From contig NZ_CP095757.1 of the NCBI RefSeq assembly GCF_023093535.1, positions 3,348,001-3,412,000 on the forward strand: a stretch of 64,000 nucleotides of DNA, written 5' to 3'. Shown here in pieces: positions 39,284-62,906 of the stretch. The translations under genes and the position numbers were made by a program. The stretch's first letter is position 1, and each line of letters opens with the position of its first letter. The notes under the pieces are model-generated. The model was not told where the DNA came from. It did no database searches and was given only the letters and a program-made list of their open reading frames with translations. The DNA comes from Halovivax limisalsi (GTDB lineage Archaea > Halobacteriota > Halobacteria > Halobacteriales > Natrialbaceae).

Positions 39284-39399
39284 AAGCGTCTCTTTCACAA
39301 TGATATGATTTAAACCTCCTGGTCACGCGGCCCACGACAATCACGAAAGGCCCGCTAAGCCCTCCGCCGAAATGGCGCGGGGAGTCACCAGAGATTGAA

Positions 39400-43192: not shown

Positions 43193-43194
43193 TG

Positions 43195-46100
43195 TTATCG
43201 GTTGTTGTAGGTGTTGAGGATATCCTTGTACTTCCACTCGGGATCGATTGGGAGCTGTTCGTCGACGTCACGGAGACTCCGCATCGGAGATCCGGGGAGG
43301 CGTTCGCTCGTCCACTGCCGGTCACTCAGCTGGACCTCAGAAATTGCACTGCGGGTGAGTTGCCTGACGTCGTCACTGAACTCCGGTGGAACCTCCGACC
43401 CACCGTACATGTCCACGAGAAGGTTCTCGAGGTCTACGTCATCAACTGTTGAGAGGAAATCTTCGGCACGGTCACCGAAGTACATCAGTTCCCCATCGTC
43501 GGTGTACATGTAGTGGTTAAGCAGGAGCGACATGAACAGCCCCGGTTGCGTCCGCTTGACGCTGTTCTTCGCCCACCGGTTCACAGAGACGGGTTCGACG
43601 AGCCGGTCGAGGAACTGGTGGTACTTCTCGAAGAAGTGGTAGTGACTCAGGTCGCGTTCCCGGATGGGGTGGAGAATATTGAACACGAGGCCGGGGTGCG
43701 AGCGACCAGCCCGGGAACTGGACTGGATGTACTCAGCAGTGGCGCGCGGCATCCCGAAGAACACCATCATGTTGAACCGGTCGACGTCCACCCCGTGGCT
43801 GATCATGCTGGTAGCCGTAACCGTATTGGGCCGGTACGCGAGTAGCCAGGCGAGTCCTTCGCGAACATCAGAGGACGCTGCGCGAAGAGCGACCCGGAAC
43901 TCCGTCCGCGATGTCCTGTCCTCATCGAGTTCTGCCGCGAGAACATCACGGAGTTTCATGATATCCGGAATTGCCTCCTCGTCGACGAGGTCATCGTCTG
44001 CAAGACTGTACAGGAGCGACTCGTCCTCGTCCTCTTGCCACGGGTTGTCGAGCTGATCCAGGATCGTCTGGACCTCCTCGAAAGGTGTCCCGCCCGTCAT
44101 GCGCTCGGAGTTGAGTGGCGGACGACCCTCGCCACGGAAATAGGCGTTCAGCTGGCTGACGAACGACTGATCCAGCCGGTCACCATCCTTCTTTGACAGC
44201 AGATAGGTGAGGCTCGTGCTGTAGAGCGTGAGAATGTCGATGATATCCGCGATGGAGTCCGTAGACAACGCCTCGCTGGTGTCGGTTCCTTCTAGAGCGA
44301 CCCCCGTGAGGAGGTCTTCGGGGGATTCCATCGCCATCAGGAGGAGATCCTGGACCTCTTCGTGGAAGGCGAAGAGGACGTCGATGATGGAGTTGATGTG
44401 CGTCTTCCCGTGCGGGATGAGCCCCATGTAGTAACGCTGTGTCTCGGGCTGTTCCATCGCGTAGAAGTTCTCGCGGAGGAAGGGGCCCGGCGACGGGAAG
44501 CGCTCTGCGGGCCGAAGGAACAGGTGGTACACCTGGTCTTCGTACGCCGTGATCGTCGCCGTGGGGGCAAGCACCTTGGTCTTTCCGGCATCGACAATCT
44601 CCTGAAGCGTCTGGACGCCCGTCTCGTAGTGCCCGTCGAAGCTTCCCACGCTCTCCTCCAAGAGGTGGAGTTCGTCGGGAACCATCAGCGACGGCGCCGG
44701 GTCATACACCTCAATTGGCGATGCCATCATCTCGAACTCGTCCTTGTCGATGTCACAGCCGTACTTCTCCGTACACTCATCGAGGCTGGCAAAGCCGTGT
44801 GTCGGACACTCGTACTCCATTTCCCCAGTCAGAAGATGGGCCATCTTCCGCTGGTAACCGACTGCGGTGATCTTGTCGATGGTTCCGGCGAGAATGCTCG
44901 GCGCGTACCGGTAGAGTTCGTTGTCGACGACGTGAATCGGGAGTTCGTCCTCAGCATACACCTCCTGAGCAGTGGTCTCGCGCTTTTGCCAGTCGCATTC
45001 GAATGGATTCCCGGTACAGGCATGTGCGAGACGGATATCTTCAGTGACTCGCATCTCGACCCGGGCGCCACACGCCGGACAGCTCGGAACGACCTTCGAT
45101 TCCTCTCGGAGGCTCTCATCCTGCTTGTATCGGGTGTATTTGTCGTTATTGTATCCCGTAAGTGCGTTCGGCGTGTTCTTCTTCCCGACAAGGAAACCGA
45201 CACTGAAGGGACGAGATGGGTGGCTACCGATGACGTCCTGGTCACGGCGGACGAGATCGGCGTACATGATGGTCTCTGACATCCGCTGGAGTTGTTGAAG
45301 CGACAGGAGCCGGAGCGGGAATCGCGTCCACGTCGTCACCCCGAAGTGCTTGCCGCGGATGCGATCGAAGAACATGTTCCAGACGGCAACACCGAAGAAC
45401 GCCTCGGACTTCCCGCCGCCAGTCGGGAACCACAGCACGTCGACGACGTCGAGGGCCCCTTCGGCCTCCTCGAACCGCTCTGAGAGGTCCTCCTCGTCAC
45501 GCCAGCTGATCTCGTCCCACTCCTCGTACTCGCGGCCCGCGATATCGGGGACGAGCATGACGATGAAGACGAGCTGGAACAGCCGCCACGTGTCGAAGTC
45601 GTGCATCCGGTCCATGGACTCGTTCATCAGTTCGAACGCGCGACCGACCGTGTCCGGGTGTTCGCGAAGCACACGAATTCCCCGGCGAAATCGGATGATT
45701 TCGCGCTCGAACGACGCTTTGTCGTCCTCGAAGTCCTCGCGGTCGGCGTCCGTCCAGTCGCCGCGCTTGCTGTATTCTCTGAGGGCTTCCGGGTAGGCGG
45801 TTTCGAGGTACGTGTCCATCGCATCCGCGACCGATTCCAGCACATCGTAGCCGCCACCCTGGAGGTCAGCGAGTTCGCTGAACGCGGGATTCACCCCCCG
45901 ATCAGCAGACTCGTAGACGAGCTGCCGGTACTCGGGGATAAACTCCGTTCGAAGGTGGTCCGTGTGCGGGTCCGCACGAGGTGCGGATCGACCTGGCGTG
46001 GCACCGCCGTGCGTCTCCACGTAGTCGGGGGCGGTGATCGTGCAGTTCCGTCCGTGACCCCAGAGATCCCGGTTGTAGCGAAAGTCTTCGGGAAGCGGGT

Positions 46101-46989
46101 CGAACGTGAATGGAGTAAATTCAACATCACCGTCTGCTTTGAGGTCGAGCTGAACCTCGAACAGCGTTGGGTCACGGAGCGTGTATACGTAGTCCCGGAT
46201 CGACTGCGTGCCAGTGTTCGTGACCTCGATGTCGAGCAGGAGTTCGTCACCAGGACTCTCCCGGTCCTCGGTGGCGATGATCTCTATCGACAGATCCCAG
46301 TCTGGTACCGCCGGTGTGCCGTCTCGTTCCTCGAGGTACTCGTTGTACTCGGTCTCGTTCTCGAGAACGTGGTTCGGGACGTCCTCGTCGGGTTTCTCGT
46401 CACCGTTGTCGAGGTAGATATCGTCGCGTGCCACGGCCCGCTCGCGAGCATCCTCCACGGCGGTTCGAATCGCTTCGGAGGCGCGCTCACGAACGACTTC
46501 CGGGGTCGTTCGGGTACCGCCGGCGAGGGCCTCGAAGGGGATCTCGATCGAAGGCACCGCCAGTTCGAGACGTTCGAAAACAGGAAGGAGCGTGGTGTTT
46601 TCGATCTCGTCATCGTCGTGATCTGCCAGTGAGACGTACTCCTCGCGTCGGTCCATCTCCTCGTAGGTCGGGTTAACACGCACCCATACGCTCCCCGTGA
46701 TGTCGATTGAGAGTGTATCACCCGCAGACCCGTTTCGGACGCGAGTCATGGTCCCAACGGTGCTGGGCTCCATCTTCGACTGGAGGTCATCGTCACTATC
46801 TTCGAGTTCGCTGTTCTCTTTCGGCGCCAGCGCTCCGGCGAAGAACTGGTCACTCGGGGCGTCTCGCTTGATGCGTGTATCATCGAGATTCCCGCTGACG
46901 CGGTCCGTGATGCGTTTTCGGAGGTGACGAGCGATGCGTTCCTCGTCGTCGGGAGGTCCGCCATCCCGACCGATCTGTCGACCCGGCAT
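43195..46989 (-). CDS. drmA: DISARM DrmA helicase
   Basis: 1264 residues. I use the ATG at 46989 rather than the longer open frame to 47178, because an AT-rich TTAAATAA box lies 30 bp upstream, as expected for a leaderless haloarchaeal transcript. Superfamily 2 helicase motifs: Walker A FPTGGGKSEA (~525), DELHLLEE (motif II, ~771), SHGVDVDRFN (~1066) and SSSRAGRSHPG (motif VI, ~1098). A cysteine set (CPACGARVEM, CTGNPFEC, CPTHG … CTEKYGC) lies between. DrmA with DrmB senses and unwinds invading DNA. First gene of the leftward drmABC operon, divergent from drmMI. Confidence 0.9.
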   Translation of the reverse strand: MPGRQIGRDGGPPDDEERIARHLRKRITDRVSGNLDDTRIKRDAPSDQFFAGALAPKENSELEDSDDDLQSKMEPSTVGTMTRVRNGSAGDTLSIDITGSVWVRVNPTYEEMDRREEYVSLADHDDDEIENTTLLPVFERLELAVPSIEIPFEALAGGTRTTPEVVRERASEAIRTAVEDARERAVARDDIYLDNGDEKPDEDVPNHVLENETEYNEYLEERDGTPAVPDWDLSIEIIATEDRESPGDELLLDIEVTNTGTQSIRDYVYTLRDPTLFEVQLDLKADGDVEFTPFTFDPLPEDFRYNRDLWGHGRNCTITAPDYVETHGGATPGRSAPRADPHTDHLRTEFIPEYRQLVYESADRGVNPAFSELADLQGGGYDVLESVADAMDTYLETAYPEALREYSKRGDWTDADREDFEDDKASFEREIIRFRRGIRVLREHPDTVGRAFELMNESMDRMHDFDTWRLFQLVFIVMLVPDIAGREYEEWDEISWRDEEDLSERFEEAEGALDVVDVLWFPTGGGKSEAFFGVAVWNMFFDRIRGKHFGVTTWTRFPLRLLSLQQLQRMSETIMYADLVRRDQDVIGSHPSRPFSVGFLVGKKNTPNALTGYNNDKYTRYKQDESLREESKVVPSCPACGARVEMRVTEDIRLAHACTGNPFECDWQKRETTAQEVYAEDELPIHVVDNELYRYAPSILAGTIDKITAVGYQRKMAHLLTGEMEYECPTHGFASLDECTEKYGCDIDKDEFEMMASPIEVYDPAPSLMVPDELHLLEESVGSFDGHYETGVQTLQEIVDAGKTKVLAPTATITAYEDQVYHLFLRPAERFPSPGPFLRENFYAMEQPETQRYYMGLIPHGKTHINSIIDVLFAFHEEVQDLLLMAMESPEDLLTGVALEGTDTSEALSTDSIADIIDILTLYSTSLTYLLSKKDGDRLDQSFVSQLNAYFRGEGRPPLNSERMTGGTPFEEVQTILDQLDNPWQEDEDESLLYSLADDDLVDEEAIPDIMKLRDVLAAELDEDRTSRTEFRVALRAASSDVREGLAWLLAYRPNTVTATSMISHGVDVDRFNMMVFFGMPRATAEYIQSSSRAGRSHPGLVFNILHPIRERDLSHYHFFEKYHQFLDRLVEPVSVNRWAKNSVKRTQPGLFMSLLLNHYMYTDDGELMYFGDRAEDFLSTVDDVDLENLLVDMYGGSEVPPEFSDDVRQLTRSAISEVQLSDRQWTSERLPGSPMRSLRDVDEQLPIDPEWKYKDILNTYNNR

Positions 46990-47033
46990 AGTGTAATCAG
47001 GAAAATACACCCCATTTGTTAAATAACTTCGGG

Positions 47034-47079
47034 TCAGACCTGCGCCTCTTTTAGATTCGTAGAATCGGCGCAGGTCTGA
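47034..47079. promoter_or_regulatory. 13-bp inverted repeat between drmA and drmMI
   Basis: TCAGACCTGCGCC (47034-47046) and its exact complement GGCGCAGGTCTGA (47067-47079), 20 bp apart, lie just upstream of the drmA TATA-like box. A second smaller palindrome, AACAATTGTT, is at 47174-47183 on the drmMI side. The position in the divergent promoter region suggests binding of a regulator, or autoregulation by methylation. Confidence 0.6.
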
Positions 47080-47250
47080 ACAGTAGCGCTCGCGCGGATA
47101 CGTGCGTGCTCGAGCGCTGCGCGTTCGCGTTCGCGCACGCGCTATGCGAAAACTGTCCCGATAGATTATATTCAACAATTGTTATATGGCAGTAGTGTTC
47201 GTTGTACAGTAATACACAGGTAGCGTTTGCCTGGCCCCAGATCACCACAG

Positions 47251-50200
47251 ATGGCTCAACAATCTCACCCATACCGAACGAACCGAGACCTCTTTTCAAA
47301 TCACTATCTTACAGAGCATCTCCGGCAGACCGAACCCTGGCAGGACGTGGACCAGGATGAGGTCCGTGACACCTACGAAGAGATCCGCGACCTCTGGAAA
47401 GAGAAGAAAGGCCGAGTAGAAGACTACAACGAGGCCCAGCTGGAGCGAAACTTTATTCGTCCCATCTTCGAAATTCTCGACGTTCCGTTCGAGATTGAGG
47501 AAACGGTGATGCGAAACGCTCGCCGCCCAGACTACGGGTTCTTCCCGAGTGCGGATTCGGCGGACGCCGCCTTTGATCGGGACGACTTCTACGCAGAAGC
47601 GGTTGCAGTTGCAGACGCCAAGCGATGGGGGCGTAAGCTCGACACCCGTGGTGAAGAGAAGCGAGACTTCGAGAACCCGAGCTACCAGATTCACGCCTAC
47701 CTCCAAGAGACCCCGGTTCAGTGGGCAGTATTGACTAACGGCAAGCAATGGCGGCTCTACTACGGACCGACTAGCCACCGGCTGGACTCCTACTTCGAGA
47801 TCGATCTGCCGGAAATCCTCCAGTATGTTGAGGAGGAGGGAGAACTCGAGGATTTCAAGGACTTCTATCTCTTCTTCCGACAACAAGCGTTCCTTCCGGA
47901 CCAGTCTGGTGATTGCTTCCTCGACAACGTCTACGACGAATCGAGCGTCTTCGCGGAGGCGATCGGTGAGGACCTTCAGGACAACATATATGAGGCGATT
48001 CGGGTTCTCGCGGAGGGTTTCTTAGACTCGAACGATGATCTCGGCGAGGACGACCTGCCGTTAGTCCACGACAGTTCGCTAATCTATCTGTATCGCCTCA
48101 TTTTCGTCCTGTATGCGGAGAGTGAGGGACGTGACCTACTACCCACTGACAACGAGATCTACAGTGAGGGGTACAGCCTGAATGAACTGAAGCAAATGGT
48201 TGCCGACAATCGCGACGAAACGAAGCGGCACTATCAGAACTGGCAGACAAAACTCTGGGACCGACTGGAGGAGCTATTCGTCCTTATCGACCAGGGAAGC
48301 CAGGGAGAAAATATCCCGAAGGACCAGCTCTACATACCGGCCTATAACGGTGGACTCTTTCGAACCAACCCTGACCCAGACGATAGCGAAGAGGCCCAGT
48401 TCCTCGCGACTCACGAGGCCGACGACGCCCATCTCGCAGAGGTGATCGACCTCCTGACACGCCGTGACTCGGACGAGGGCGACGGCCAAGTTTTCGTCGA
48501 CTACTCGTCGCTCGACGAACGTCATCTCGGATCGATTTACGAGGGTCTTCTCGAGTACAAGCTCGACGTCGCTGATGAGCCATTGACAGTCGAGGACGGC
48601 GAGTACTCCCCTGCTGATGGTGATGACGACATCGCCGTCGCTGAAGGCGACGTGTATCTCCGTACGGACGCTGGTGAACGGAAGGCCACGGGGTCATATT
48701 ACACGCCTGAGTATGTCGTCGAGTACATCGTTGACGAGACGCTCGGACCACTTGTCGACGATATACGAGAGGAGCTGGTCGGAACGGAGTCGTATCATGA
48801 GGGTGGCTTTGCCGGAGAGTTCGCCGAGCGCGTGTTTGACCTGAAGGTACTCGATCCGGCGATGGGTAGTGGGCACTTCCTCGTCAACGGGGTCGACTAC
48901 CTCGCACGAGAGATTATCGACGCACAGGAACGGCAGGATCAGCAAGCAGTCAAGAGGGGCGATGAAGACGCAATCAGCGATCCCCGGACCGAAGAAGGAG
49001 AACTCAGAGACATCAACTGGGCACGTCGAAAAGTTGCTCAGAGGTGTATCTATGGTGTCGACCTGAATCCCCTAGCAACGGAGCTGGCAAAGGTGTCGCT
49101 GTGGCTGCGTACCCTCGCTGCCGAGCAACCGCTTGCGTTCCTCGACCACCACCTTAAGACTGGAAACTCGCTCGTCGGTAGTGACATCGAGGATGTGCTC
49201 TCCAACGACAACGACGGCGCCCAGTCAGGCCAGACGCGGCTCTCGGATTGGTTGGACCAAGCTCGCCAGCGTGCCATCGAGCACGTCATGGAACGCTTTG
49301 CTGACCTCCTCAGCATCGACAACGAGACCCTCGAGGACATTAAGCAAATGGAAGAAGTATACGAGGAGGTTCGTGACGATCCTCTCTACCAGCACCTTCT
49401 CGCTATGGCAAACGTTCATACTTCAGCGCATTTTGACTTGGACGTCCCCCAAGACGCCGAAGAGCAAATGGCTGAAGCACTTCGAGACGGCTCGTGGAGC
49501 AAGATTGAGAACGAAGATTGGTTCCAGAGTGCCCAAGATATTGCTGAAGAGGAGTCCTTCTTCCACTGGGAGCTTGAGTTCCCTGTTGCTTTCTACGACA
49601 ACGAAGGTGAGAGGAAATCTGACGCCGGGTTCGACGCCGTCATCGGGAACCCCCCGTACGTCTTCATCGATTCTATCCCCGAGCACCATCGGGATTATTA
49701 CCGAAAGGTTTCTGCGACATGGGATTACCGATACGACCTGTACGGCTTATTTACCGAATACGGAATGGAGTTAACAAAACGCGGGGGGGAATTCGGATAC
49801 ATAATCCCTCACAGCCTACTCAACAACAACTCCTTTGGCGCTCTCCGGCACTATCTCATAGATAGATCGAATGAGATAGACGTGATTGACTTTACTGAGC
49901 CAGTCTTCGAGGATGCATCCAACGAGACGATGATTCTTCGTATTCGCAGAAGTGATACGAAGTCAAATACCCCAATTCTACGTGGTGCCCTAATCGAGAC
50001 GTCTGAACTGGCTGTAGTAGAGAAGTATTTGACCGAGTTCCCTGCCTCGGCAATCGAGAATCTCCCCGGGAATCCATTCGTTGTTCGTGGGGGAGAGTGG
50101 ATCTGGAAACTTATAGAGACGGACGAAACGAGGTTCCTTGGAGAACTCGTCGACACCGTCCAAGGGCTCAGAACAGGGAACAATACGAAACGATTGAGCG

Positions 50201-51381
50201 ACTCGAAAGAAGACGGGCGTTATCGCAAGGCAATCGCAGGCGAGGACATTGATCGGTACGTCTGTGATTGGTCCGGTACATGGGTAATGTATGATAGGGA
50301 TATCCTGAGCAAAGACCCCGCAGCACGGCCTCGTGAACCCAAATTCTGGGAGGCGGAAAGAAAGATCCTCGTTCAAGAAATACGGAACGTACACCTTGAC
50401 CAACGCATTGTCGCCGCTATAGATAATCACAAACATATCGGATTGAATACAACGAATGCGATTATACTAGAAGACGAATCACTCAGTCTTGACTACCTAA
50501 TGGGTATACTCTCTTCAAATCTGATCAACGAGTTCTTTCGGGCTTGTTTTGTCGATAATCACATCGCAACTCAGTATTTGGAAGCTATCCCAATTCCCAC
50601 TCTCAATGTACAGAACCAGGAGACACCAGAGCAACTGTCTACTGGGATAGACCAAATTAAAGAAACGGGAGACTTTACGGAGGTTCAAACATACCTGCGG
50701 GAAAACAATCCGTTGAGGGCTGGTGACGACGCCGCTCACGCAATTATCTCGGAGCTCTCAAGTCTGATTTCGGAGATGGCGAACGACCGTCACTCTCTCA
50801 ACCTCTCCCTCATTGACTACCTCGGCAACTACGCTGAAGGTCCGAAGCTCCCAAATATCGGCCAGTTCCAGCCGACATCACCAAACATTCTCGATGCAAC
50901 GACAGATGAGTATGAGAAGCTCCAAGTTGAGAACGTCCACGCGAAGCGTGACGGTCACGCCGTAACTATTGAGGCGACGGCGAGGTACAAGCCCAAGAAC
51001 GATGAGGCGTTCGAGACGGACCAGTGGGGTTACACAGAAACAGAGTACTTCGATGCGTTCACACTTACGGACCTCACCGATGAGGAAGCTGTACTCGTGG
51101 AAGCGTTCGTGCCAGTTGCTGTCGAAGAGGAAATTGGTGGGTTCCGCGACAATGCCACGAAGACGAACTCCCTTATCGATCGCCTGAAGGACATAATGCT
51201 CCCAGATATCGACGATGTTCAGGACGATCTCGAACACTACATCAAGAACAAGGACCGAGCAGAGGAACTTGATGGGAAGATAGAGAAGACCAACCACCTC
51301 ATTGACGAGATTGTTTACGACCTCTACAATCTCACTGACGAGGAGATTGAAATCGTGGAGGGGGCAGCAAGCAGTGAGTGA
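47251..51381 (+). CDS. drmMI: DISARM DrmMI-type adenine methyltransferase with nuclease-like N terminus
   Basis: 1376 residues from the ATG at 47251; an upstream TTG is less likely. N-terminal ~60-220: RRPDYGFF (~91) followed by AVAVADAKRWG (~117) and WRLYYGP resembles the PD-(D/E)xK nuclease-like N terminus of type I/IIG enzymes. Then a large N6-adenine methyltransferase domain: motif I VLDPAMGSGHFLVNG (~532), motif IV IGNPPYVFID (~800, NPPY), followed by a target-recognition/helical C terminus. It methylates adenine in host DNA, marking self for the DISARM core. Divergent from drmA, and the next genes downstream are decayed. Full-length and without frameshift. Confidence 0.85.
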   Translation: MAQQSHPYRTNRDLFSNHYLTEHLRQTEPWQDVDQDEVRDTYEEIRDLWKEKKGRVEDYNEAQLERNFIRPIFEILDVPFEIEETVMRNARRPDYGFFPSADSADAAFDRDDFYAEAVAVADAKRWGRKLDTRGEEKRDFENPSYQIHAYLQETPVQWAVLTNGKQWRLYYGPTSHRLDSYFEIDLPEILQYVEEEGELEDFKDFYLFFRQQAFLPDQSGDCFLDNVYDESSVFAEAIGEDLQDNIYEAIRVLAEGFLDSNDDLGEDDLPLVHDSSLIYLYRLIFVLYAESEGRDLLPTDNEIYSEGYSLNELKQMVADNRDETKRHYQNWQTKLWDRLEELFVLIDQGSQGENIPKDQLYIPAYNGGLFRTNPDPDDSEEAQFLATHEADDAHLAEVIDLLTRRDSDEGDGQVFVDYSSLDERHLGSIYEGLLEYKLDVADEPLTVEDGEYSPADGDDDIAVAEGDVYLRTDAGERKATGSYYTPEYVVEYIVDETLGPLVDDIREELVGTESYHEGGFAGEFAERVFDLKVLDPAMGSGHFLVNGVDYLAREIIDAQERQDQQAVKRGDEDAISDPRTEEGELRDINWARRKVAQRCIYGVDLNPLATELAKVSLWLRTLAAEQPLAFLDHHLKTGNSLVGSDIEDVLSNDNDGAQSGQTRLSDWLDQARQRAIEHVMERFADLLSIDNETLEDIKQMEEVYEEVRDDPLYQHLLAMANVHTSAHFDLDVPQDAEEQMAEALRDGSWSKIENEDWFQSAQDIAEEESFFHWELEFPVAFYDNEGERKSDAGFDAVIGNPPYVFIDSIPEHHRDYYRKVSATWDYRYDLYGLFTEYGMELTKRGGEFGYIIPHSLLNNNSFGALRHYLIDRSNEIDVIDFTEPVFEDASNETMILRIRRSDTKSNTPILRGALIETSELAVVEKYLTEFPASAIENLPGNPFVVRGGEWIWKLIETDETRFLGELVDTVQGLRTGNNTKRLSDSKEDGRYRKAIAGEDIDRYVCDWSGTWVMYDRDILSKDPAARPREPKFWEAERKILVQEIRNVHLDQRIVAAIDNHKHIGLNTTNAIILEDESLSLDYLMGILSSNLINEFFRACFVDNHIATQYLEAIPIPTLNVQNQETPEQLSTGIDQIKETGDFTEVQTYLRENNPLRAGDDAAHAIISELSSLISEMANDRHSLNLSLIDYLGNYAEGPKLPNIGQFQPTSPNILDATTDEYEKLQVENVHAKRDGHAVTIEATARYKPKNDEAFETDQWGYTETEYFDAFTLTDLTDEEAVLVEAFVPVAVEEEIGGFRDNATKTNSLIDRLKDIMLPDIDDVQDDLEHYIKNKDRAEELDGKIEKTNHLIDEIVYDLYNLTDEEIEIVEGAASSE

Positions 51382-52049: not shown

Positions 52050-52790
52050 TTAGAGCCAATACAGACCAGCGTTCAACTCTTCTAGAAACGTGGACCGTAC
52101 CCGGACATCAGGAGGTAACGACAACTGTTCTCCCTGGCGCTCGATAATCGTCTGCCTCAGGAATGGATGGCCGGGGTCGAATGACGGGCTAGCACGTATT
52201 TGATAGTCGCTATCAACCGTGAACAGGTTAGCATCAAACGCCCGATGGTGGAGCGAATTCAGAACGAACACGTTCTCTGGATGTTCGGCGAGATCAGGAC
52301 GCTGGCTCCGGGTAGCACGTGAGCCAGGTCGGGCATTGGTTCCTCCTGGATGCCGGTCATGGGACAGGAATACCCGTATCGCTCGAGTGTTTCAGTCCGG
52401 AACGCCTCGCTAACAACGACTTCCCGTTGCTCATAGCGTCGAATGTTCCCTCCGACCGGATCGAGTAATTCCCCCTGTCGGCCATTGCTGGGCCTCTCCA
52501 GTTCTCACCCACTGCTTCCAGACGTCTGGTGCCTGCTCGGCGCTGTTCGTCTGCGTGCGGTCGTGGAGCCACGACACAGGAACAGACTACGTGTTGAGAA
52601 TCGAGATGTGAGAAATTTTTCGGAAAAGGTATATCAGAATTATTTAGACAGAATCGTATCAGACGTAATCGGTGACGCAGGATTAGCAGAACTCAACCGT
52701 TCCAAACTGTGGCTTCTAAAATTCGAAATCCGGAGATCTCCTCCGCGCCGGCCAAATGATTTCCTGTCAGGTACTTCGTTGAATTTCAGT
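52050..52790 (-). pseudogene. Decayed copy of the SRA-like/HNH nuclease gene
   Basis: Strongly similar at DNA and protein level to the intact gene at 54325-55371. The 3' part still reads FVLNSLHHRAFDANLFTVD … FLEELNAGLYWL (52050-52271). Upstream of this the frame is broken repeatedly, and similarity fades towards 52790, covering roughly two thirds of the gene; the 5' end is missing. Orientation and gene order match the intact module, showing a duplication of the nuclease/SNF2 unit. Confidence 0.85.
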
Positions 52791-52956: not shown

Positions 52957-53928
52957 ATGGAAATCGCCGATGTTGTCTCCTGTGATTTCTATAATTCCCA
53001 GACCTGGGACGGGCGTGAAAAGTCGAGAGTTCATTTATACAAACAGGGCGAACAGGTGGGACTCGATCTCGAAACGGAACGGACTGGAAGTGACGGGAAG
53101 ACACAGGAGCTAACGAGGATCGAGATCAGCCGAATGGACGCTGAAACATTACGTAAAATTCAGTCTGTACTGGGCGAGTGGCTAAAGAAAGTTGACTCGG
53201 AGCAGACTAATCTGACAACACGACCAGTCGAGGGAATATACAAAGATAGCTCAACAGATCACGAAATCTCTCGTCTGCAAGTCGAATTTACCTCTCAGGG
53301 GCTGCGGATACTACCTTTCGCATCGGGAAACAGACCAATGCCGAACGCGACACATATCCCTTGCACCACAGAGATACACGATGAGACCATCAGGGATAAC
53401 AGCCATCTGAAACGCCTCTATAGCCTTATTGAGGTCTTTATGGCGGGAATCGAACAGGAGAGCGACGACGTACTCCAGTCAACGAAGTACCTCTTGGATT
53501 CGGAATCACATGTTCATCCTGACCTCAGAGAAATCTGTCTTGAACGTCTTGACAACGGTGACTGTACAGGCGTGGTTCAGGCGGCCGGAACAGCACTCGA
53601 GGAAACGCTTCAAGCGAAAGCTTCAGACGAGATTGTGAAGCGAGCAAGCAATGCTACCGACCTCGCAAACCAGACATTCAACGTAGACAATCCCGTCTTC
53701 AAATGGGGCTATAATGATGGTGAGCAGAGGGGGTTGCACCAGCTCTACGCGGGTGCGTTCATGGCCCTGCGAAATCCAATGAGTCATCCGCGAGGCGACC
53801 CTGACCGTAACCGGTATCTGGACGATATCGACGAGCGCGATGCACTAGATATCCTTTGCCTGTTCAACTTCCTGCTCCGTAAACTGGATCAATACGGTAC
53901 AACGACCCTCGAACAGGAAGCCCAGTAA
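52957..53928 (+). CDS. TIGR02391-like protein
   Basis: 323 residues, ATG at 52957 with a TTTTA box ~33 bp upstream. The C-terminal ~120 residues match the TIGR02391 (Ymh-like) family: GVVQAAGTALEETLQAK (~208), LHQLYAGAFMALRNPMSHPR (~259-278) and a long C-terminal helix. This domain is found in phage- and defence-linked proteins of unknown mechanism, possibly nucleic-acid or abortive-infection related. The N-terminal ~150 residues (beta-rich) are not recognised. The gene sits between the two decayed fragments of the duplicated nuclease/SNF2 module, where the shared promoter would have been. Base composition is lower in GC than neighbours, suggesting separate arrival. Confidence 0.68.
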   Translation: MEIADVVSCDFYNSQTWDGREKSRVHLYKQGEQVGLDLETERTGSDGKTQELTRIEISRMDAETLRKIQSVLGEWLKKVDSEQTNLTTRPVEGIYKDSSTDHEISRLQVEFTSQGLRILPFASGNRPMPNATHIPCTTEIHDETIRDNSHLKRLYSLIEVFMAGIEQESDDVLQSTKYLLDSESHVHPDLREICLERLDNGDCTGVVQAAGTALEETLQAKASDEIVKRASNATDLANQTFNVDNPVFKWGYNDGEQRGLHQLYAGAFMALRNPMSHPRGDPDRNRYLDDIDERDALDILCLFNFLLRKLDQYGTTTLEQEAQ

Positions 53929-53979
53929 CGTTCTGTGCCGACAAAGACATGAAATCCGCGAGTCACATCGGACCTACTA

Positions 53980-54325
53980 GTGACAGGTTGCGATTGCGGG
54001 TTCGAAGTTGGAGGCCCGTGAGTTTCGTGGGCGGCGAGGTCGAAGGTAAACCACCGACCGAGTGGACTATGCCTAGTAACAATATTGGCCGACATTAGGC
54101 AGGAAAAGCGCCTGAGTACCGTCGTCAACAGAGCTTAAGGTAGTGGTTCGCTGCTCGCAAAGCAAGAGTTCGATTCCCCCGAGCGTTTAAATCTCCGTGC
54201 TCGTGCCGCGGAACGCGATCTCGCCCATCAACAGGGCTGGTTCGTCGCTCTGAAGAGCAGTCGAATCTTTTTCACGCCACACACCAGGTCAAAGGCGCCT
54301 GTGACAGGTTTCGGATTCACATCAT
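53980..54325 (+). pseudogene. Decayed 5' fragment of the DrmD-like SNF2 gene
   Basis: Corresponds to the first ~350 bp of the intact gene at 55506. It starts at an equivalent GTG (53980), reads TGCDCGFEVGGP, then a TGA, against TSCSCGFEVGNR in the intact copy. It continues with clear DNA similarity (for example the GAGTTCGATTCCCCCGAGCG stretch near 54170) until it abuts the stop of the intact HNH gene. Only the N terminus remains and it has stops and indels, so it is non-functional. Confidence 0.85.
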
Positions 54326-55371
54326 CACAGCCATGAAATCCCGGCGTTCAGCACTTCGAGGAATAATGGCCGAATCTGAACGTTAGGAGGTAACGCTAGT
54401 CGTTCGCCCTGTTGTTTGACGATGGTTTCCTTGAGGAACGGGTGTGCAGGGTCAAAAGAAGGACTGACCCGTATTCGATAGTCGCTATCGATCGTGAACA
54501 GGTTTGCATCGAACGCTCGATGGTGGAGCGAGTTCATGACGAATACATTTTCGGGGTGTTCGGCGAGGTCGGGGCGCTGGCTCCGGGAAAGAATGTGAGC
54601 AAGGTCGAGCAAAGGCTCTTCCTGGATGCCGGTCACGGTACATGCATATCCGTACCGCTCGAACGTTTCAGCCCGGAACGCATCGCTGACAACCACTTCC
54701 GATCGTTCGTACCGCCGAAGGTTTCCTCCGACCGGATCGAGCAGCTCCCCGGTTGGCCACTGCTGAACCTCTCCGGTTCTCACCCACTGCTTCCAGACCT
54801 CCGGTGCCTGCTCGGCGCTGTTCGTCTGCGCGCGGTCGTGGAGCCACGATACAGGAACGGACTGCGTGTTGAGAATCGAGAAGTGAAAAAGGTAGTTTGG
54901 AATCTGGGCACCCGAATCGTCCTGATACGAACGCACCTCCAGATGGTCGGGGACACAGAGGCCACAGAACTCTACGGTCCCCGACTCCGGCTTTCGGAAT
55001 ACGAGGACCGGTGGTACTTCTTCGCGCCGCCCCGAGGCTTTCCTGTCGAAGGCTTCCTTGATCTTATCATTCTGATCAGACTCGTCGTAGGGGTTGTTCG
55101 CCTTCGCATCGCCCCAGTAGCTGATGTACCCCGAATCAACAGCCAGGGTATCCTCCCACGGATCATCGTGCTGGGAGACTCCTTTATCGTTCGAGACGAG
55201 TACTAGGGCCGCAGGAATGTCGGAACGGTTAGTACCGAGGTCGCGAATTCCGCCGACGTTCTTAATCCCACTATCCAGCGGTCCGCGAATCCAGCGCAAG
55301 AACTGATCTTCCTGTTTTCTGTAACTCCCTGTGTCACGATATCTGTTGCCAATAGTGTATGTGGAGCTCAT
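54325..55371 (-). CDS. HNH endonuclease with SRA-like (AspBHI-N type) reader domain
   Basis: 348 residues from the ATG at 55371 (the longer frame to 55494 is antisense to the SNF2 5' region). The C terminus has the HNH_2-type motif: CTVTGIQEEPLLDLAHILSR, ENVFVMNSLHHRAFD, giving His/Asn/His. The N-terminal half (VGGIRDLGTN, YISYWGDAKANNP, PPVLVFRK, FCGLCVPD, NYLFHFSILN) follows the pattern I know from the SRA-like domain of the 5-methylcytosine-dependent endonuclease AspBHI. So it is probably a type IV, modification-dependent restriction enzyme. It is back-to-back with the SNF2 gene, sharing ~130 bp. Reader specificity is inference. A decayed copy lies at 52050-52790. Confidence 0.76.
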   Translation of the reverse strand: MSSTYTIGNRYRDTGSYRKQEDQFLRWIRGPLDSGIKNVGGIRDLGTNRSDIPAALVLVSNDKGVSQHDDPWEDTLAVDSGYISYWGDAKANNPYDESDQNDKIKEAFDRKASGRREEVPPVLVFRKPESGTVEFCGLCVPDHLEVRSYQDDSGAQIPNYLFHFSILNTQSVPVSWLHDRAQTNSAEQAPEVWKQWVRTGEVQQWPTGELLDPVGGNLRRYERSEVVVSDAFRAETFERYGYACTVTGIQEEPLLDLAHILSRSQRPDLAEHPENVFVMNSLHHRAFDANLFTIDSDYRIRVSPSFDPAHPFLKETIVKQQGERLALPPNVQIRPLFLEVLNAGISWL

Positions 55372-55471
55372 AGTTTCAGTAATTGGGAGTATTTGCCTTA
55401 AATGGTTCCGCGAAAAAGGCCCATATCCGGAATTATACCGATCTTCGGTTCCTGGATGTGAATTCCGCGAA

Positions 55472-55479
55472 GATATTAA
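55472..55479 (+). promoter_or_regulatory. TATA-like box of the SNF2 gene
   Basis: GATATTAA lies 27-34 nt upstream of the GTG at 55506, the spacing expected for a leaderless haloarchaeal transcript, and supports that GTG over an upstream TTG. Confidence 0.5.
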
Positions 55480-55505
55480 GAGGACAAGCCCCATCTGTTT
55501 CAGCA

Positions 55506-58448
55506 GTGACCAGTTGCAGTTGTGGATTCGAAGTCGGTAATCGCGTTAGTTTCGCGGGCGGCGAGGGCGAGGTGGCAAAGGTAAACCACCGACCAAGCGG
55601 ACAGTGCTTGGTAACGATCTTGACCGACGCTGGACAGGAGAAACGTCCGAGCGCCGTCGTCGAGAAGGTCGAAGGGACCGATTCGCTACTCGCCAAGCGT
55701 GAGTTCGACACCCCCGAGCGTTTCAATCTCCGGGCTCGTGCCGCAGAACTCGACCTCGCCCACCGGCAGGACCGGTTCGTCGCCCTGGAGAGCAGCCGGA
55801 TCGACATCGCGCCCCACCAGGTGAAAGCCGCCTACGACATCCTCACATCGTACGACCACCGCTACCTGATCGGGGATGAAGTCGGGCTCGGAAAGACGAT
55901 CGAGGCAGCCATCGTCATCGAAGAACTCGCCGCCCGTGGGCAGGCTGACAGGGTCCTGATCGTCGCACCCGCGCCACTCACGACGCAGTGGCAGGAGGAG
56001 CTCCGCGAGAAGTTTGACAGCAACTACGTCGTATACGACCGCGATTACGTCGACGCGAAGCGTGGAGCCCACCCGAACAAGAACGTCTGGACGCACGACG
56101 ATCGCATCATCACATCCATTGACTTCGCGAAGCAGGAGGACATGCTCGCAGCGCTCGACAATCTTGGGGAGGAGTGGGACATCGCAGTGTTCGACGAGGC
56201 TCACCACCTTACTGCTCGCCGTGAGGGAAAGCGCGGAATCGACAGGACGGAGCGATACAGGGTCGGCGAAGCTGTGTCGAAGACGTCTGATGGTCTCATT
56301 TTCCTGACCGGGACCCCCCACAAGGGGAAGCGCGACCAGTTCTACTTCATGATCTCGCTGCTGGACCCCTACCGGTTCCGCGACGAGCACGACGTCAACA
56401 AGGAGGGACTCCGGGACCTGATGATCCGCCGGCTGAAGGACCAGATGTACGAGGCCGACGGCTCGAAGATGTTCCCGGAGAAGAATATCGAGACGCTGCC
56501 AGTCACGTTCACGCCAGCCGAACGCGAGCTCTACGAGAAGGTCACCGACTACATTACTGAACACTACAACCTTGCCCATCGCGAGGACAATGACACAGCT
56601 GGGTTCGCGATGGTTCTCTATCAGAAGCGTCTGGTCTCGTCGATTCACGCGATCCGAAAATCCCTCAAGAACCGGATGAAGTCCATCCAGGCCGGCGGCG
56701 CGGACCCGAGCGACCTCTCCCAGGCCACGAAGAGTCTCCTGCCGCAGTATCGGGAGGATCCGAATATGCTCACCGACGCCCAGCGGGAGAAGGTCGAGGA
56801 GGACCTCGGTGGGGTCGCGGCGTCAAGTGATCCAGAGAGGGTCCAGAAGGAACTTTCGATCGTTCGAGACCTCTATAACCAGGCCAAGGCGATAGACGTC
56901 GACTCGAAAGCAGAACAGCTGCGTGAGTTCGTTGATGGTGTCCTCGCCGAGGAACCGGACGAGAAGGTGCTCGTGTTCACCGAGTACACGGACACACTGG
57001 AATACCTACGGGATCGGGTGTTCAGTGAGCACGACATCGCGCAGGTTTACGGCGACCTCTCCCAGGCGGAACGTCAGCGCCAGCTCAAGAAATTCGAGGA
57101 GGAGGCGAACATCATGCTCGCGACGGATGCGGCCCGTGAGGGGCTGAACCTCCAGTTCGCCCATATCATGGCCAACTACGACCTCCCATGGAACCCGACG
57201 CGGATCGATCAGCGCATCGGTCGACTCCACCGGTACGGTCAGGACCGAACAGTCGAGATCCGGAACCTGTTCGTCGATGACACGCGGGAAAGCGACATCC
57301 TCGAGCTGCTGATGAACAAGCTCGATGAGATCGAAGAAACCCTCGGAATGAGTTCCGACGTACTGGGACTCATTCTGGAGGACGTCAACCTCGAAGACCA
57401 GATTATGACGGCGGTCGCCCAGCCGGATGGATCAAAGCAGGTTGCAGCGGATATAGACGCGATTGTCGAAGATCAGGAGGAGGCTGTCAGACGGGTCGAC
57501 AAAGAGCTGCTCATTCGCGATCGCTTCGACCTGAGCGAACAGGACCGGGAGATACTCGACGTCATAGAGGAGAGTGCTGAGGATACGATCAGCGAGGCGG
57601 ACGTTGAATACCTCGTCAGGACCGTTTGCAACGAGTTTGGTGGTCGTATCGTGAACGCGCGATCGGGTCCCGCGGACGATGGTGGTGACGTGTTCGACCT
57701 CGTGGTTCCCGACCCAATCTCGGGAGGAGAGGTGAAAGACCGGTACGACGGGGCGACGTTCGACCGGGAGAATGCAGTCGTTGATGAGGACCTGGAGTTT
57801 ATCGCCCTCGATCATCCGGTCGTCCGGTCTATGATGCAGTTCTGTCTTGACACCGATGCAGTTGGCGGACAGACAGCTGTTCTGACCGGAGGTCGCAATC
57901 TGGATACTCCTGGACTGCTCTGTCACTTCCGGGTCGGATACCTCTCTGGGACCGGCGACACCGTGACGGAACGTCTCACCCAGGTATACGTGACCCCCGA
58001 CGAAGACACGATAACTGGCGAGGTCGATCTCACTGGTGGGCTGCCACCGTCAGCTGTCGACGACTATCCTGCCGTCGACGCAATCACGGCAAGTGCCGAC
58101 GAATTCGTAGAAAGCGCCGAAGCGGCTGCCTGGGAAGTTATCGAAGATCTGGCCGATGAGGCACGTGAAGAGCGAGAACGGGAAGTGCGAATTCGTCGCG
58201 AACACACGCAGAACTACTTCGAATACCGTATCGAGGACCTCGAGGAACGCATCCAGAAGTACGAGGAACGTGGTGCAAAGCCGGATGAGGATATGGGCGT
58301 CGTTATCGCAAAAGCCCGGAGCGAACTCGAGAGCTTGCGGGATGAGCGTGACGATGCTCTGGCTCGACTCGAAGAAGAGGGGCAGGTAATTCCCGATGAA
58401 CCAGAACTCGTCAATATGGCCGTTGTTATCGACGCCTTTGAGAGCTGA
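55506..58448 (+). CDS. drmD: DrmD-like SNF2 helicase
   Basis: 980 residues from the GTG at 55506, chosen because the start of the paralogue at 62906 aligns there and a TATA-like box precedes it. SNF2/RapA-type ATPase: Walker A GDEVGLGKTIEAA (~120), motif II DEAHHL (~228), TGTPHKGK (~275), ATDAAREGLNLQ (~540) and RIGRLHRYGQDR (~566). A short N-terminal SH3-like part (FEVGNRVSFAGGEGEV) and a charged coiled-coil C terminus frame the motor. Class 1 DISARM loci encode DrmD, a SNF2 helicase near drmMI, so this is the best drmD candidate. It could instead form a separate system with the HNH nuclease. Confidence 0.78.
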   Translation: MTSCSCGFEVGNRVSFAGGEGEVAKVNHRPSGQCLVTILTDAGQEKRPSAVVEKVEGTDSLLAKREFDTPERFNLRARAAELDLAHRQDRFVALESSRIDIAPHQVKAAYDILTSYDHRYLIGDEVGLGKTIEAAIVIEELAARGQADRVLIVAPAPLTTQWQEELREKFDSNYVVYDRDYVDAKRGAHPNKNVWTHDDRIITSIDFAKQEDMLAALDNLGEEWDIAVFDEAHHLTARREGKRGIDRTERYRVGEAVSKTSDGLIFLTGTPHKGKRDQFYFMISLLDPYRFRDEHDVNKEGLRDLMIRRLKDQMYEADGSKMFPEKNIETLPVTFTPAERELYEKVTDYITEHYNLAHREDNDTAGFAMVLYQKRLVSSIHAIRKSLKNRMKSIQAGGADPSDLSQATKSLLPQYREDPNMLTDAQREKVEEDLGGVAASSDPERVQKELSIVRDLYNQAKAIDVDSKAEQLREFVDGVLAEEPDEKVLVFTEYTDTLEYLRDRVFSEHDIAQVYGDLSQAERQRQLKKFEEEANIMLATDAAREGLNLQFAHIMANYDLPWNPTRIDQRIGRLHRYGQDRTVEIRNLFVDDTRESDILELLMNKLDEIEETLGMSSDVLGLILEDVNLEDQIMTAVAQPDGSKQVAADIDAIVEDQEEAVRRVDKELLIRDRFDLSEQDREILDVIEESAEDTISEADVEYLVRTVCNEFGGRIVNARSGPADDGGDVFDLVVPDPISGGEVKDRYDGATFDRENAVVDEDLEFIALDHPVVRSMMQFCLDTDAVGGQTAVLTGGRNLDTPGLLCHFRVGYLSGTGDTVTERLTQVYVTPDEDTITGEVDLTGGLPPSAVDDYPAVDAITASADEFVESAEAAAWEVIEDLADEAREEREREVRIRREHTQNYFEYRIEDLEERIQKYEERGAKPDEDMGVVIAKARSELESLRDERDDALARLEEEGQVIPDEPELVNMAVVIDAFES

Positions 58449-58494: not shown

Positions 58495-59841
58495 ATGGAA
58501 ACGCGGCCTTCTGCTATTGACCTGTTCTGCGGTGCCGGAGGCCTTAGTCAGGGCCTCCGGAAAGCGGGCTTCGACGTCCAGTGGGCGATTGACAGCGATG
58601 CTGCTGCCGTAGAAACCTACCGGCAGAACATCGGTGACCACGTGGTCGAAGCCGATATTCGTGAAACCGATCCAGCGACCGACGGTCCGGACATCAAGCC
58701 AGGTGATCTCGACCTTGTGGCAGGGGGCCCGCCCTGCCCTTCGTTCTCCACAATCGGTCGAGCGAAACTTGAATCTCTGGAGGAGAGGTCGACCGAAAAT
58801 GATAACCGGAACGTCCTCTACCGCGACTTTCTCCGATATGTCGACTATTTCGAGCCGAGTGCCTTCGTTATGGAGAACGTCCCGGGACTGCTCAACGACA
58901 CTGCGCTCGTTGAGACAGATACGATTCAGCAGTCACTTCCGACCGATACAGCATCCCCCGGGAAACCGGTTGGTCAGGAGACGCCCGTCCCTGAAATTAT
59001 TCTTGAGGAGATGGAGGCGCTCGGCTATCACGCGGATTGGGGGGTGGTCGATGCGGCCGACTTTGGAGTGCCACAGTATCGAAATCGTGTCTTTTTCACT
59101 GGTGTCCGTTACGGGAATACGCTCCCAGACCTCGATCAGTGGAGAACCCACCGTGAACCGAAGAATGAGCAAGAACGAACCATGCGAATCCGGAGGGAAC
59201 CTGGAGCGTTCACAGATTCCTCTCAGACCACGTTCGACACGGGGCCCGCTCTTCCCCCCTTCACTCGTGGCGAGACGACCAGACTGCCATACCTGACTGT
59301 TGCTGACGCGATTATGGACCTGCCTCCGGTTTCCCCGGGAGGAGGTATGCCGCCAGGCGAAGCGACTGAATACACGCTCCCTCCCGTCTCCCCGTATCAG
59401 AAATGGTTACGCGACATTCCTGAGGACGAGGACTGGGAAGACCAGGTACTGCGCAACCACACTTGCCGATGGCACAATCACCTCGACCTCTCGATCTACA
59501 AACTGCTTGGCCACGGTGTGGGATGGAACATCGGGGATGTGAGTCAGGAGCTTCAGCCCTATCGAGACGACGTCTTTCCGGACAAATATAAGAAGCAGGA
59601 TCCGTCGAAGCCGGCGTCAACGATTCTTGCACATATTCAGAAGGACGGACATATGTTCATACACCCGACAGAGGCTCGTTCACTCACTGTCCGAGAAGCA
59701 GCACGGTTACAGTCCTTCCGTGACTCCTACTGGTTCCCCGAGAGCAGAACGAAGGCATATCGGCTCGTCGGGAACGCTGTGCCACCGAGGCTAGCTCACG
59801 CCGTGGGAAAGGCAATTAGAGATGTTCTTCTGGAATACTAG
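58495..59841 (+). CDS. Cytosine-C5 DNA methyltransferase (second copy)
   Basis: 448 residues, ATG 46 nt after the SNF2 stop, probably same transcript. Motif I IDLFCGAGGLSQG (~8), IV GGPPCPSFSTIG with catalytic Cys (~80), VI MENVPGLL (~126), VIII PQYRNRVFF (~192), X LVGNAVPPRLAHA (~427). A target-recognition region lies between VIII and IX. It makes 5-methylcytosine and is only distantly similar to the enzyme at 37040, with no HhH extension. C5 methyltransferases (DrmMII) belong to class 2 DISARM, so its presence beside a class 1 set is mixed. Faces the second SNF2 gene, with stops 12 nt apart. Confidence 0.88.
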   Translation: METRPSAIDLFCGAGGLSQGLRKAGFDVQWAIDSDAAAVETYRQNIGDHVVEADIRETDPATDGPDIKPGDLDLVAGGPPCPSFSTIGRAKLESLEERSTENDNRNVLYRDFLRYVDYFEPSAFVMENVPGLLNDTALVETDTIQQSLPTDTASPGKPVGQETPVPEIILEEMEALGYHADWGVVDAADFGVPQYRNRVFFTGVRYGNTLPDLDQWRTHREPKNEQERTMRIRREPGAFTDSSQTTFDTGPALPPFTRGETTRLPYLTVADAIMDLPPVSPGGGMPPGEATEYTLPPVSPYQKWLRDIPEDEDWEDQVLRNHTCRWHNHLDLSIYKLLGHGVGWNIGDVSQELQPYRDDVFPDKYKKQDPSKPASTILAHIQKDGHMFIHPTEARSLTVREAARLQSFRDSYWFPESRTKAYRLVGNAVPPRLAHAVGKAIRDVLLEY

Positions 59842-59852
59842 CCGCTCAAAAA

Positions 59853-62800
59853 TTACTGATTGTGAGAGGAACCAGCAGCGATGTCGTCCGGTGAGGAGAT
59901 GACATCTGCCTCAATGGCGGGAACTGATTCGGTAACGAAAGCGGCGTTCACGAGTTCTGGTTCGTCAGGGATGATCTGGCGTTCGCGCTCGAGGCGTTCC
60001 TGTTCCCGATTCCATTTTTCCTCAAGTTTTCGGATTTCCGCCCGTGTGCTGTCGATTGCGACCTGCATATCCTTCTCGGTATCCGTAGCGTCCTTCTCGT
60101 ACTTGCGGAGCCGGTCCTCGTGCTTGCGAATCTGGTGCTGAAAATACCGCTCTGCGTGTTGTTCTTTGATATCCACTTTCTGAGCCCGTTCCTCTCGGAC
60201 ACCGTCAATCAGTCCCTCCACAACAGTTGTGGCTTCATTGCGCGCCTGTTCCAGAAGTTCACCAACTCTCCCTGCTATTTCCCCCGTTTCTAGACCGGTG
60301 CTCGCGGCCTGTGCGGGAAGTACACCGACTATCGAGGGAGGTTCAGCATGTATCTCTCCCTCAGCATCGATGTAAACATGCGTGTAGTCTTCAGTAGGCA
60401 CCTCACCAGCCCCACTCACATAGCCGAGCCGGTAGGTAACGAGGATACCAGGGGTCTTGGAGGGATCCTGCGCAACCAGTGCCGCCACCTTCCCGTCGAT
60501 CCAGTCGCCATCCAGGCAGTATTCAGTAATTGCCTGAACGAGCGGATGATTGAGCGATATAAGCTCCGCATCGGGCTCATCCAGAGCGATTGTCCGTGAG
60601 AACGTGACTTTACGGTACTGTTCATCGACCTCTGTATTCAACGAGATGATGTCGGGCACTTGGACCTGGAGAAGCGAAGCTGAAGATCCCTTAGAAGACT
60701 GGCTGCTCGTAACTCGCCCTCCAAACTCCTTACAGAACTCTCGAACGAGTTGCTCGATGTCATCTTCACTGATAGGGTTCTCCTCACTCAGATTGATAAT
60801 GTTCTCTATTGCTTCGTGGTCGTCAGCGTCGAACTTGTCTCGAATTAAAAACTCACGTTCAATTTTCTCGACGGCCTCTTTTCGTTCCTCAACGGCTGCG
60901 TCGATCTCCTGTTTTACCGCATCGGAGCTTCGCTCACCGGTCACCGCATCCATAATTGCAGCCTCGACATCGTAGTCATCGAGAACTGTTCCAAGGACGT
61001 CAGATCGCATTCCCGTGTCGGACTCGATCTGATCGATCTTGTCCACCAGCAACTGGAGAATATCGCTCTCTCTGGTTTCCTTAACAAACAGATTATACAC
61101 CTGAACGGTCTGATCCTGTCCGTACCGGTGAAGTCTACCCATTCGCTGGTCAATCCGGATAGGGTTCCATGGTAGGTCGTAGTTCGCCATGATGTGCGCG
61201 AACTGGAGGTTCAGTCCCTCTCGGGCCGCGTCAGTCGCCAGAAGAATATTCGCGTCATCTCGGAACGCATCAATGGCCTCACGCCGTGCCTCCTGATCCA
61301 TCTGGCCACTGATTTCTACTGTCGTGTATTCAGACAGGACCTCGTCACGAAGGTATCTCAGTGTGTCCGTGTACTCCGTGAATAGCAGGATCTTCTCGTC
61401 CGGATCTTCCGAAAGGACGCCATCGACGAATTCGCGAAGCCGCTTCCCCTTCGAGTCGACACCGATATTGTTTGCCGCCGTAATTAACTGCTCCAGAACA
61501 TCGGCCTCTGTTTCTACGGTGTCGTCGACAGTATGTAACTGGGACGAAACATCCTTCCCCACAGTTGTTTTCTCCTCAAGATCGTCGAGACGATTCTGGA
61601 GGGATTGAGCAATGGCTCGGATCGACGAGACGAGACGCTTCTGGTAAATTACCATCGTAAATCCCGCTGCATGTCTGTCGGATTCGGCGTTGGCTGTGTA
61701 CACCGCAGAGATGTACTCCGTCAGATCGTCGTACAACCGTCGTTCAGCGGAAGTCAGTGAAACAGGAAGGGTGGTTATCTCTCGGTCAGGGAACATCGGT
61801 GTTCCGTCCGCTGCGATCATACTGTCATCTGTCTTTACCCGCCGTATCATCAGGTCCTCCAGTTCCTCGGGAGTGATATCTTCGGGACCCCGGAACCGGT
61901 ACGGGTCGAGCAATCTGAGTAGATGGAAGAACTGATCGGGTTTACCCTTGTGGGGCGTTCCGGTCAGGAAGAGGAGTGCATCGGTGTCGCCGGCTACAGC
62001 CTCAGCTACACGGTAACGTCCAACCCGCTCGATACCGTCACCGGTCTCACGAGCTGTCAGATGATGTGCTTCGTCGAATACGACGACATCCCAGTGTTCG
62101 TCGAGTCTTCGCAGGTCGTCAAGCAATCCATCCTGCTTTGCGAAATCGATGGAGACGACAATTTTGTCGTCGTGTGTCCAGACATTAGTTCCGGGATGAG
62201 CGTTGCGTAGTGTGTCGACATACCCCCGATCGTAGGTTACATACTCACGGCCGAACTTGGTCTTCATCTCCCGCTGCCACTGATCCCGAAGCGAGGCAGG
62301 AGTAATAATTAAAACGCGGTCAGCTCGATCGCGAGCAATCAATTCCTCGATGACGATTCCCGCCTCGATCGTCTTCCCGAGCCCAACTTCATCGGCAATC
62401 ATGAACCGCGGCTCATATGAAGTCAGTATCTGATGGGCAGCGTCGACCTGATAGGGCTCGATCCGAATCCGGTTTCCAGATAAAGAGAGGAACCGGTTCG
62501 ATCGATATGCCAGACTCAGCCGAACTGCCCGCTCACGAAGGCTGAATCGTACTGGATCATCGAATTCACCGGAAGCTAGTCGGTCCGGAACCGACCGTCC
62601 AGGTTCGATGCCCGCAAGATCACCGGGAACTTTCTTCAGTTCGCCGCCCTCAGTACGCAGGTACAGGAGATCGGAGCGGCCCTCCCGTTCCTGGACCGAC
62701 ACTACACATGCTCGACCGCCGGGAAACTGGACAAAGTCTCCTTCACCTGCTTCCTCCAGTTTCCGCACCATCGGGAGATCCGAAGAAATCTCACGGACTG

Positions 62801-62906
62801 TACCATCGGATGTGAGTATCTGTAGATTTGGACCTTTAACATCGATTATGTTACCCTTTCCACCGTAGAAAGCCACTTGATCCCCTATATCAAATGCAGA
62901 TGACAT
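59853..62906 (-). CDS. Second SNF2 helicase, paralogue of the DrmD-like protein
   Basis: 1017 residues, ATG at 62906. Same architecture as the protein at 55506: N-terminal SH3-like segment (FDIGDQVAFYGGKGN), Walker A ADEVGLGKTIEAG (~173), DEAHHL (~278), TGTPHKGK (~325), ATDAAREGLNLQ (~560), RMGRLHRYGQDQ (~590) and a long charged coiled coil near the C terminus. The two align over most of their length, including HQILTSYEPRF versus YDILTSYDHRY. It is on the opposite strand with its own promoter side at ~62910 (AT-rich, TTATTTGAAT-like boxes). It could be a second defence motor serving the C5 methyltransferase next to it. Confidence 0.82.
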   Translation of the reverse strand: MSSAFDIGDQVAFYGGKGNIIDVKGPNLQILTSDGTVREISSDLPMVRKLEEAGEGDFVQFPGGRACVVSVQEREGRSDLLYLRTEGGELKKVPGDLAGIEPGRSVPDRLASGEFDDPVRFSLRERAVRLSLAYRSNRFLSLSGNRIRIEPYQVDAAHQILTSYEPRFMIADEVGLGKTIEAGIVIEELIARDRADRVLIITPASLRDQWQREMKTKFGREYVTYDRGYVDTLRNAHPGTNVWTHDDKIVVSIDFAKQDGLLDDLRRLDEHWDVVVFDEAHHLTARETGDGIERVGRYRVAEAVAGDTDALLFLTGTPHKGKPDQFFHLLRLLDPYRFRGPEDITPEELEDLMIRRVKTDDSMIAADGTPMFPDREITTLPVSLTSAERRLYDDLTEYISAVYTANAESDRHAAGFTMVIYQKRLVSSIRAIAQSLQNRLDDLEEKTTVGKDVSSQLHTVDDTVETEADVLEQLITAANNIGVDSKGKRLREFVDGVLSEDPDEKILLFTEYTDTLRYLRDEVLSEYTTVEISGQMDQEARREAIDAFRDDANILLATDAAREGLNLQFAHIMANYDLPWNPIRIDQRMGRLHRYGQDQTVQVYNLFVKETRESDILQLLVDKIDQIESDTGMRSDVLGTVLDDYDVEAAIMDAVTGERSSDAVKQEIDAAVEERKEAVEKIEREFLIRDKFDADDHEAIENIINLSEENPISEDDIEQLVREFCKEFGGRVTSSQSSKGSSASLLQVQVPDIISLNTEVDEQYRKVTFSRTIALDEPDAELISLNHPLVQAITEYCLDGDWIDGKVAALVAQDPSKTPGILVTYRLGYVSGAGEVPTEDYTHVYIDAEGEIHAEPPSIVGVLPAQAASTGLETGEIAGRVGELLEQARNEATTVVEGLIDGVREERAQKVDIKEQHAERYFQHQIRKHEDRLRKYEKDATDTEKDMQVAIDSTRAEIRKLEEKWNREQERLERERQIIPDEPELVNAAFVTESVPAIEADVISSPDDIAAGSSHNQ

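Follow-up and report, generated by a model that had tools for sequence, protein, structure and literature searches.

How might a nuclease that is predicted to recognize modified cytosine coexist with two enzymes able to methylate cytosine in the same genomic island, and what, if anything, binds it to the helicase gene from which it diverges? These questions arise from a 64,000-nt stretch of Halovivax limisalsi contig NZ_CP095757.1 (termed the window; all coordinates are positions within it). A first-pass annotation had described an HNH protein with an AspBHI-like N-terminal half, encoded back-to-back with an SNF2 helicase. The reading favored here, with a probability of roughly 0.7, is that the protein is a single-chain Type IV enzyme within a DISARM lineage, where it would provide a second layer that works independently of the helicase and spares host 5mC. 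The gene and the two domains of its product are as follows.

54325..55371, minus strand: HNH endonuclease of 348 aa, predicted to be modification-dependent (Pfam, PDB, alignment, AlphaFold2 model)
Residues ~20-201 of the HNH protein, N-terminal: AspBHI/MspJI-type SRA-like reader
Residues ~230-348 of the HNH protein, C-terminal: HNH_2 nuclease domain

The longest open reading frame covers 54325-55494 on the minus strand, but the ATG at 55371 is the start in 21/21 close relatives, and the 348-aa form is preferred to the longer ATG frame (55494) because all of these relatives align from residue 1. The likeness of the N-terminal half to the SRA-like domain of AspBHI is upheld by Pfam (RE_AspBHI_N, PF18062, E=1.4e-38), by a PDB sequence search, in which the closest solved relative is AspBHI (4oc8, 1.3e-12) followed by MspJI and LpnPI, and by a fold search; the comparison with AspBHI and SRA readers that had been proposed as a check thus gives clear matches by both sequence and fold. 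The AlphaFold2 model (pLDDT 83) matches MspJI, AspBHI and LpnPI at 1.9e-13 to 2.8e-12 and, more weakly, the reader–HNH enzymes TagI (SRA-HNH, 8.8e-8), ScoMcrA and VcaM4I. The C-terminal domain matches HNH_2 (PF13391, E=2.6e-9). In MspJI, LpnPI and AspBHI, the 5mC pocket is formed by W, D, Y, G, D and N residues (PMC4499157), and the complete set has counterparts here (N61, W72, D74, Y85, G87 and D88). Across 37 relatives, D74, Y85, G87 and D88 are invariant, as are the catalytic HNH residues H259, N275 and H283/H284, and W72 and N61 are present in at least 90%. Homology, fold and pocket conservation together lend good support to the earlier proposal of a modified-cytosine reader. The protein therefore carries the N-terminal reader and pocket of MspJI-type enzymes with HNH_2 in place of their PD-(D/E)XK nuclease, and it has the make-up of a Type IV enzyme in which a modified-base reader is fused to an HNH domain with catalytic H/N/H residues. 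Selection for retention of the gene is evident from dN/dS values of 0.05-0.20 among intact HNH genes, the lowest of which come from saturated dS.

The genes surrounding the nuclease place it within a larger system.

40239..41183, minus strand: DrmC, PLD nuclease (PADLOC)
41234..43237, minus strand: DrmB (PADLOC, 2.2e-52)
43195..47178, minus strand: DrmA helicase (PADLOC, 8.9e-150)
47227..51381, plus strand: DrmMI, N6-adenine methyltransferase (PADLOC PDLC02643, 1e-99; Pfam Eco57I, TaqI_C)
55372..55505, no strand: divergent intergenic region of 134 bp between the HNH and drmD starts
55506..58448, plus strand: SNF2-family helicase, DrmD of DISARM (PADLOC DrmD, 9e-111; BrxHII, 5.6e-168)
58495..59841, plus strand: DrmMII-like C5-cytosine methyltransferase (PADLOC, Pfam)
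59853..62906, minus strand: second DrmD-like SNF2 helicase (PADLOC, Pfam)

Both the HNH gene and its SNF2 neighbor are real and lie on opposite strands, as the first-pass annotation had stated, although it overlooked the identity of the helicase as the DrmD of a full DISARM locus. The core genes drmA, drmB and drmC are all present, together with drmMI, a drmMII-like gene and drmD, which related loci retain alongside the core. Membership of BREX was considered for the helicase, whose BrxHII score exceeds its DrmD score; since PglZ has no match above the family cut-off in the genome, the locus is assigned to DISARM rather than BREX. Additional DrmD-like genes also occur in loci L092 and L109. 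At the 3' end of drmMI lies a half-length TBP paralogue (116 aa, PF00352; 51569-51919, minus strand), homologues of which are found in other haloarchaeal DISARM loci (L091:10199-10489, L109:10041-10388, L117:7287-7634 and 8401-8739); it is a possible DISARM-linked regulator.

The likely drmD start is the GTG at 55506 rather than the listed 55383, which lies inside the promoter region of the HNH gene; drmD in related loci likewise begins at the position matching 55506. AT-rich, TATA-like elements lie close to each start (ATTTAAGG ahead of HNH and GATATTAAG ahead of drmD), and we infer from them that 55372..55505 is a promoter region for both genes. This sharing is probably a by-product of inverted insertion of the HNH gene between two otherwise adjacent genes.

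The distribution of the nuclease was surveyed in 391 genomes of the class, 52 of which encode the AspBHI-type reader family. Close DISARM loci were defined by a DrmA relative at 49% identity or more (16 genomes), and 36 more genomes have a distant DrmA relative. The HNH gene lies inverted between drmMI and drmD, as in the window, in 8 of the 16 close loci (with an internal stop in one of them, G092), and a ninth, G255, has a decayed HNH remnant at this junction. None of the 36 distant loci carries HNH there (Fisher p=3e-6 versus close loci), and it is missing from the junction in 7/16 close loci as well, so the gene is not an obligatory DISARM component. In G159 and G145, where the junction HNH is absent, drmMI and drmD abut, which indicates that the HNH gene splits an otherwise adjacent pair; no convincing HNH remnant was found in the drmMI-drmD gap of G221.

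Roughly 30 others, equal in length and 56-78% identical (most 71-78%), stand alone, with no drm gene within ~9 kb. In the neighborhood survey proposed earlier, HNH-SNF2 pairing does recur, but only in DISARM, and these ~30 relatives have no DrmD-like divergent neighbor. Because solo HNH genes are common, the nuclease does not depend on the helicase as a partner, and the suggestion that it might provide self/non-self discrimination finds no support, given that the pairing is limited to DISARM loci. No universally conserved partner gene was found for the solo HNH. A conserved cluster encoding proteins of 118 and 89 aa together with one resembling an ADP-ribosylglycohydrolase occurs at variable distance from the HNH gene in 15 solo loci (including L035:11133-14480 and L056:10058-13405), and is apparently an insertion hot spot.

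In the protein tree, DISARM-linked HNH proteins fall into two clades, both separate from a clade of 27 solo genes that is itself well supported. The DISARM/solo label changes only twice on this tree, a value as low being reached in 0/500 shuffles, and DrmA identities show the same split. One or two acquisitions by DISARM, followed by shared inheritance, would explain this pattern. The clustering, together with a position and orientation fixed in two DISARM clades, would also be expected of a working DISARM subunit, an effector nuclease that DrmD or DrmAB would load or activate and that would degrade DNA after DISARM has been triggered; the degrading nuclease of DISARM is unsettled, with DrmC being dispensable (PMC9142583). 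Such a role is nevertheless quite unlikely in view of the solo genes of equal length and, for the most part, 71-78% identity, the close loci whose junction has no HNH, and the alignment, in which no column except residue 113 separates all DISARM-linked from solo HNH proteins and no specificity-determining set common to all the DISARM-linked proteins was found. Similarly doubtful is a lineage-specific arrangement in which DrmD or DrmAB would hand modified or remodelled DNA to the AspBHI-HNH effector. If the effector reading were true, one DISARM variant would attack unmarked DNA and also destroy wrongly marked DNA.

A second, degenerate HNH/drmD pair lies next to the intact one.

52054..52782, minus strand: decayed HNH copy, 3' part, 75% nt identity to the intact gene
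52957..53928, plus strand: Hypoth_Ymh gene (PF09509), replacing the HNH 5' half in the decayed copy
53944..54306, plus strand: decayed drmD copy, 5' end, 73% nt identity, adjoining the intact HNH gene on its downstream side

The decayed pair spans 52054-54306 in the same relative orientation as the intact HNH/drmD pair, and the decayed and intact HNH genes are sisters in the nucleotide tree (support 93.9/96), which places the duplication within this lineage. The earlier view that the divergent pair was duplicated as a unit therefore stands. A comparable drmD fragment adjoins HNH in L090, and relatives of the Ymh gene adjoin drmD or drmC in L106 and L118. A 31-bp perfect repeat proved to be merely the overlap between two query pieces.

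Decay or turnover in the window copy, G255, G092 and G010 indicates that the HNH gene is not essential, and its frequency counts against the favored reading in that it fits a dispensable passenger, in which case a mobile solo restriction gene would have landed in DISARM by chance and been kept through linkage only. Although the presence of solo relatives at many places and the repeated decay at the DISARM junction agree with this, a passenger would hardly be expected to show low dN/dS in its DISARM-linked copies, retention of junction and orientation across genera, and an intact copy kept after duplication, all of which make the possibility very unlikely.

Two further genes bear on how the Type IV enzyme proposed here would cope with the host's own methylation.

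37040..39298, minus strand: second C5-cytosine methyltransferase, 752 aa
39400..40242, plus strand: HhH-GPD glycosylase, Mig type, closest to the G:T mismatch enzyme 1kea (4e-34)

Both C5 methyltransferases noted in the first-pass annotation are thus present (37040-39298 and 58495-59841). The glycosylase, which lies beside a C5 methyltransferase, likely repairs deaminated 5mC, and its similarity to 1kea suggests that the host does produce 5mC and mends it after deamination. This methyltransferase–glycosylase pair (37040-40242) is recurrent beside haloarchaeal DISARM loci. Genomes that encode the nuclease show no shortage of C5 methyltransferases (34/52 with the nuclease versus 149/339 without), so self 5mC must be tolerated by the nuclease; these counts and the neighboring Mig-type enzyme strengthen the earlier argument that it has to cope with self methylation, which is probably both genuine and tolerated. 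An indiscriminate 5mC reader would turn against its own host, because two enzymes make, or could make, 5mC in this genome, a point that weighs against the Type IV reading. In the MspJI family, surface loops of the reader define the short sequence context in which 5mC is accepted (PMC4499157), and sequence context is therefore the simplest account of self-tolerance. The specificity of the DrmMII-like enzyme could not be deduced from its solved relatives.

The main rival to sequence context is a reader specific for another modification, such as 5hmC, a hypermodified viral pyrimidine or N4-methylcytosine, to which host 5mC would be irrelevant. Such a reader would equally be expected to show no avoidance of C5 methyltransferases, which is a further point against the favored reading; these enzymes do co-occur freely with the nuclease, two of them share the island with the G:T glycosylase, and SRA-like pockets vary in their tolerance for 5mC, 5hmC and 5ghmC (PMC4499157). 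However, the complete pocket match to the 5mC/5hmC readers MspJI, AspBHI and LpnPI makes this alternative unlikely.

Under the preferred reading of a helicase-independent Type IV enzyme, the SRA-like N-terminal domain probably captures a 5-modified cytosine by base flipping, within a short sequence context, and the C-terminal HNH domain would cut nearby. The gene would travel with its haloarchaeal DISARM lineage, lodged between drmMI and drmD, and its product would work without the helicase. Unmodified DNA is the described target of DISARM (PMC9142583), and a division of labor can be envisaged in which DISARM attacks DNA without the host mark and the HNH enzyme attacks DNA with a foreign cytosine modification. 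Likely targets would be viruses that methylate their own DNA; the haloviruses HCTV-16, Halfgib1 and HGTV-1 encode C5 methyltransferases, so modified targets plausibly exist, and the enzyme probably attacks viral DNA carrying modified cytosine. Host 5mC would be spared in contexts or forms that the reader refuses. The analysis establishes homology, the pocket and catalytic residues, the position in the locus, solo occurrence and purifying selection; modification dependence, cleavage, complementarity to DISARM and self-avoidance are what we infer for the enzyme, and the coexistence of a 5mC-type reader with two C5 methyltransferases and a glycosylase likely to repair 5mC deamination in one island poses a testable question.

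The protein shares with MspJI, AspBHI and LpnPI an SRA-like N-terminal reader that spans ~180 residues and has identical pocket residues, but characterized members of that family carry a PD-(D/E)XK nuclease (PMC4499157), and no characterized protein joining an MspJI-type reader to an HNH nuclease was found in the papers searched. Like TagI, ScoMcrA (SRA-HNH) and VcaM4I, it has an HNH nuclease C-terminal to a modified-base reader; however, these enzymes are much weaker structural matches than MspJI and AspBHI, and its reader belongs to the AspBHI Pfam family. The locus has the complete DISARM set of drmA, B, C and D, drmMI and a drmMII-like gene, to which it adds an HNH gene, placed between drmMI and drmD, and a second drmD-like gene. 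A parallel in organization is BREX with BrxU on pEFER, an experimentally tested pairing (PMC8565348) in which a modification-dependent nuclease is likewise encoded with a system attacking unmodified DNA. BrxU is a GmrSD-family enzyme partnered with BREX, whereas the putative pairing described here joins an AspBHI-HNH protein to DISARM. If the reading is correct, DISARM would gain a second layer from a Type IV enzyme housed within its locus, as BREX does from BrxU.
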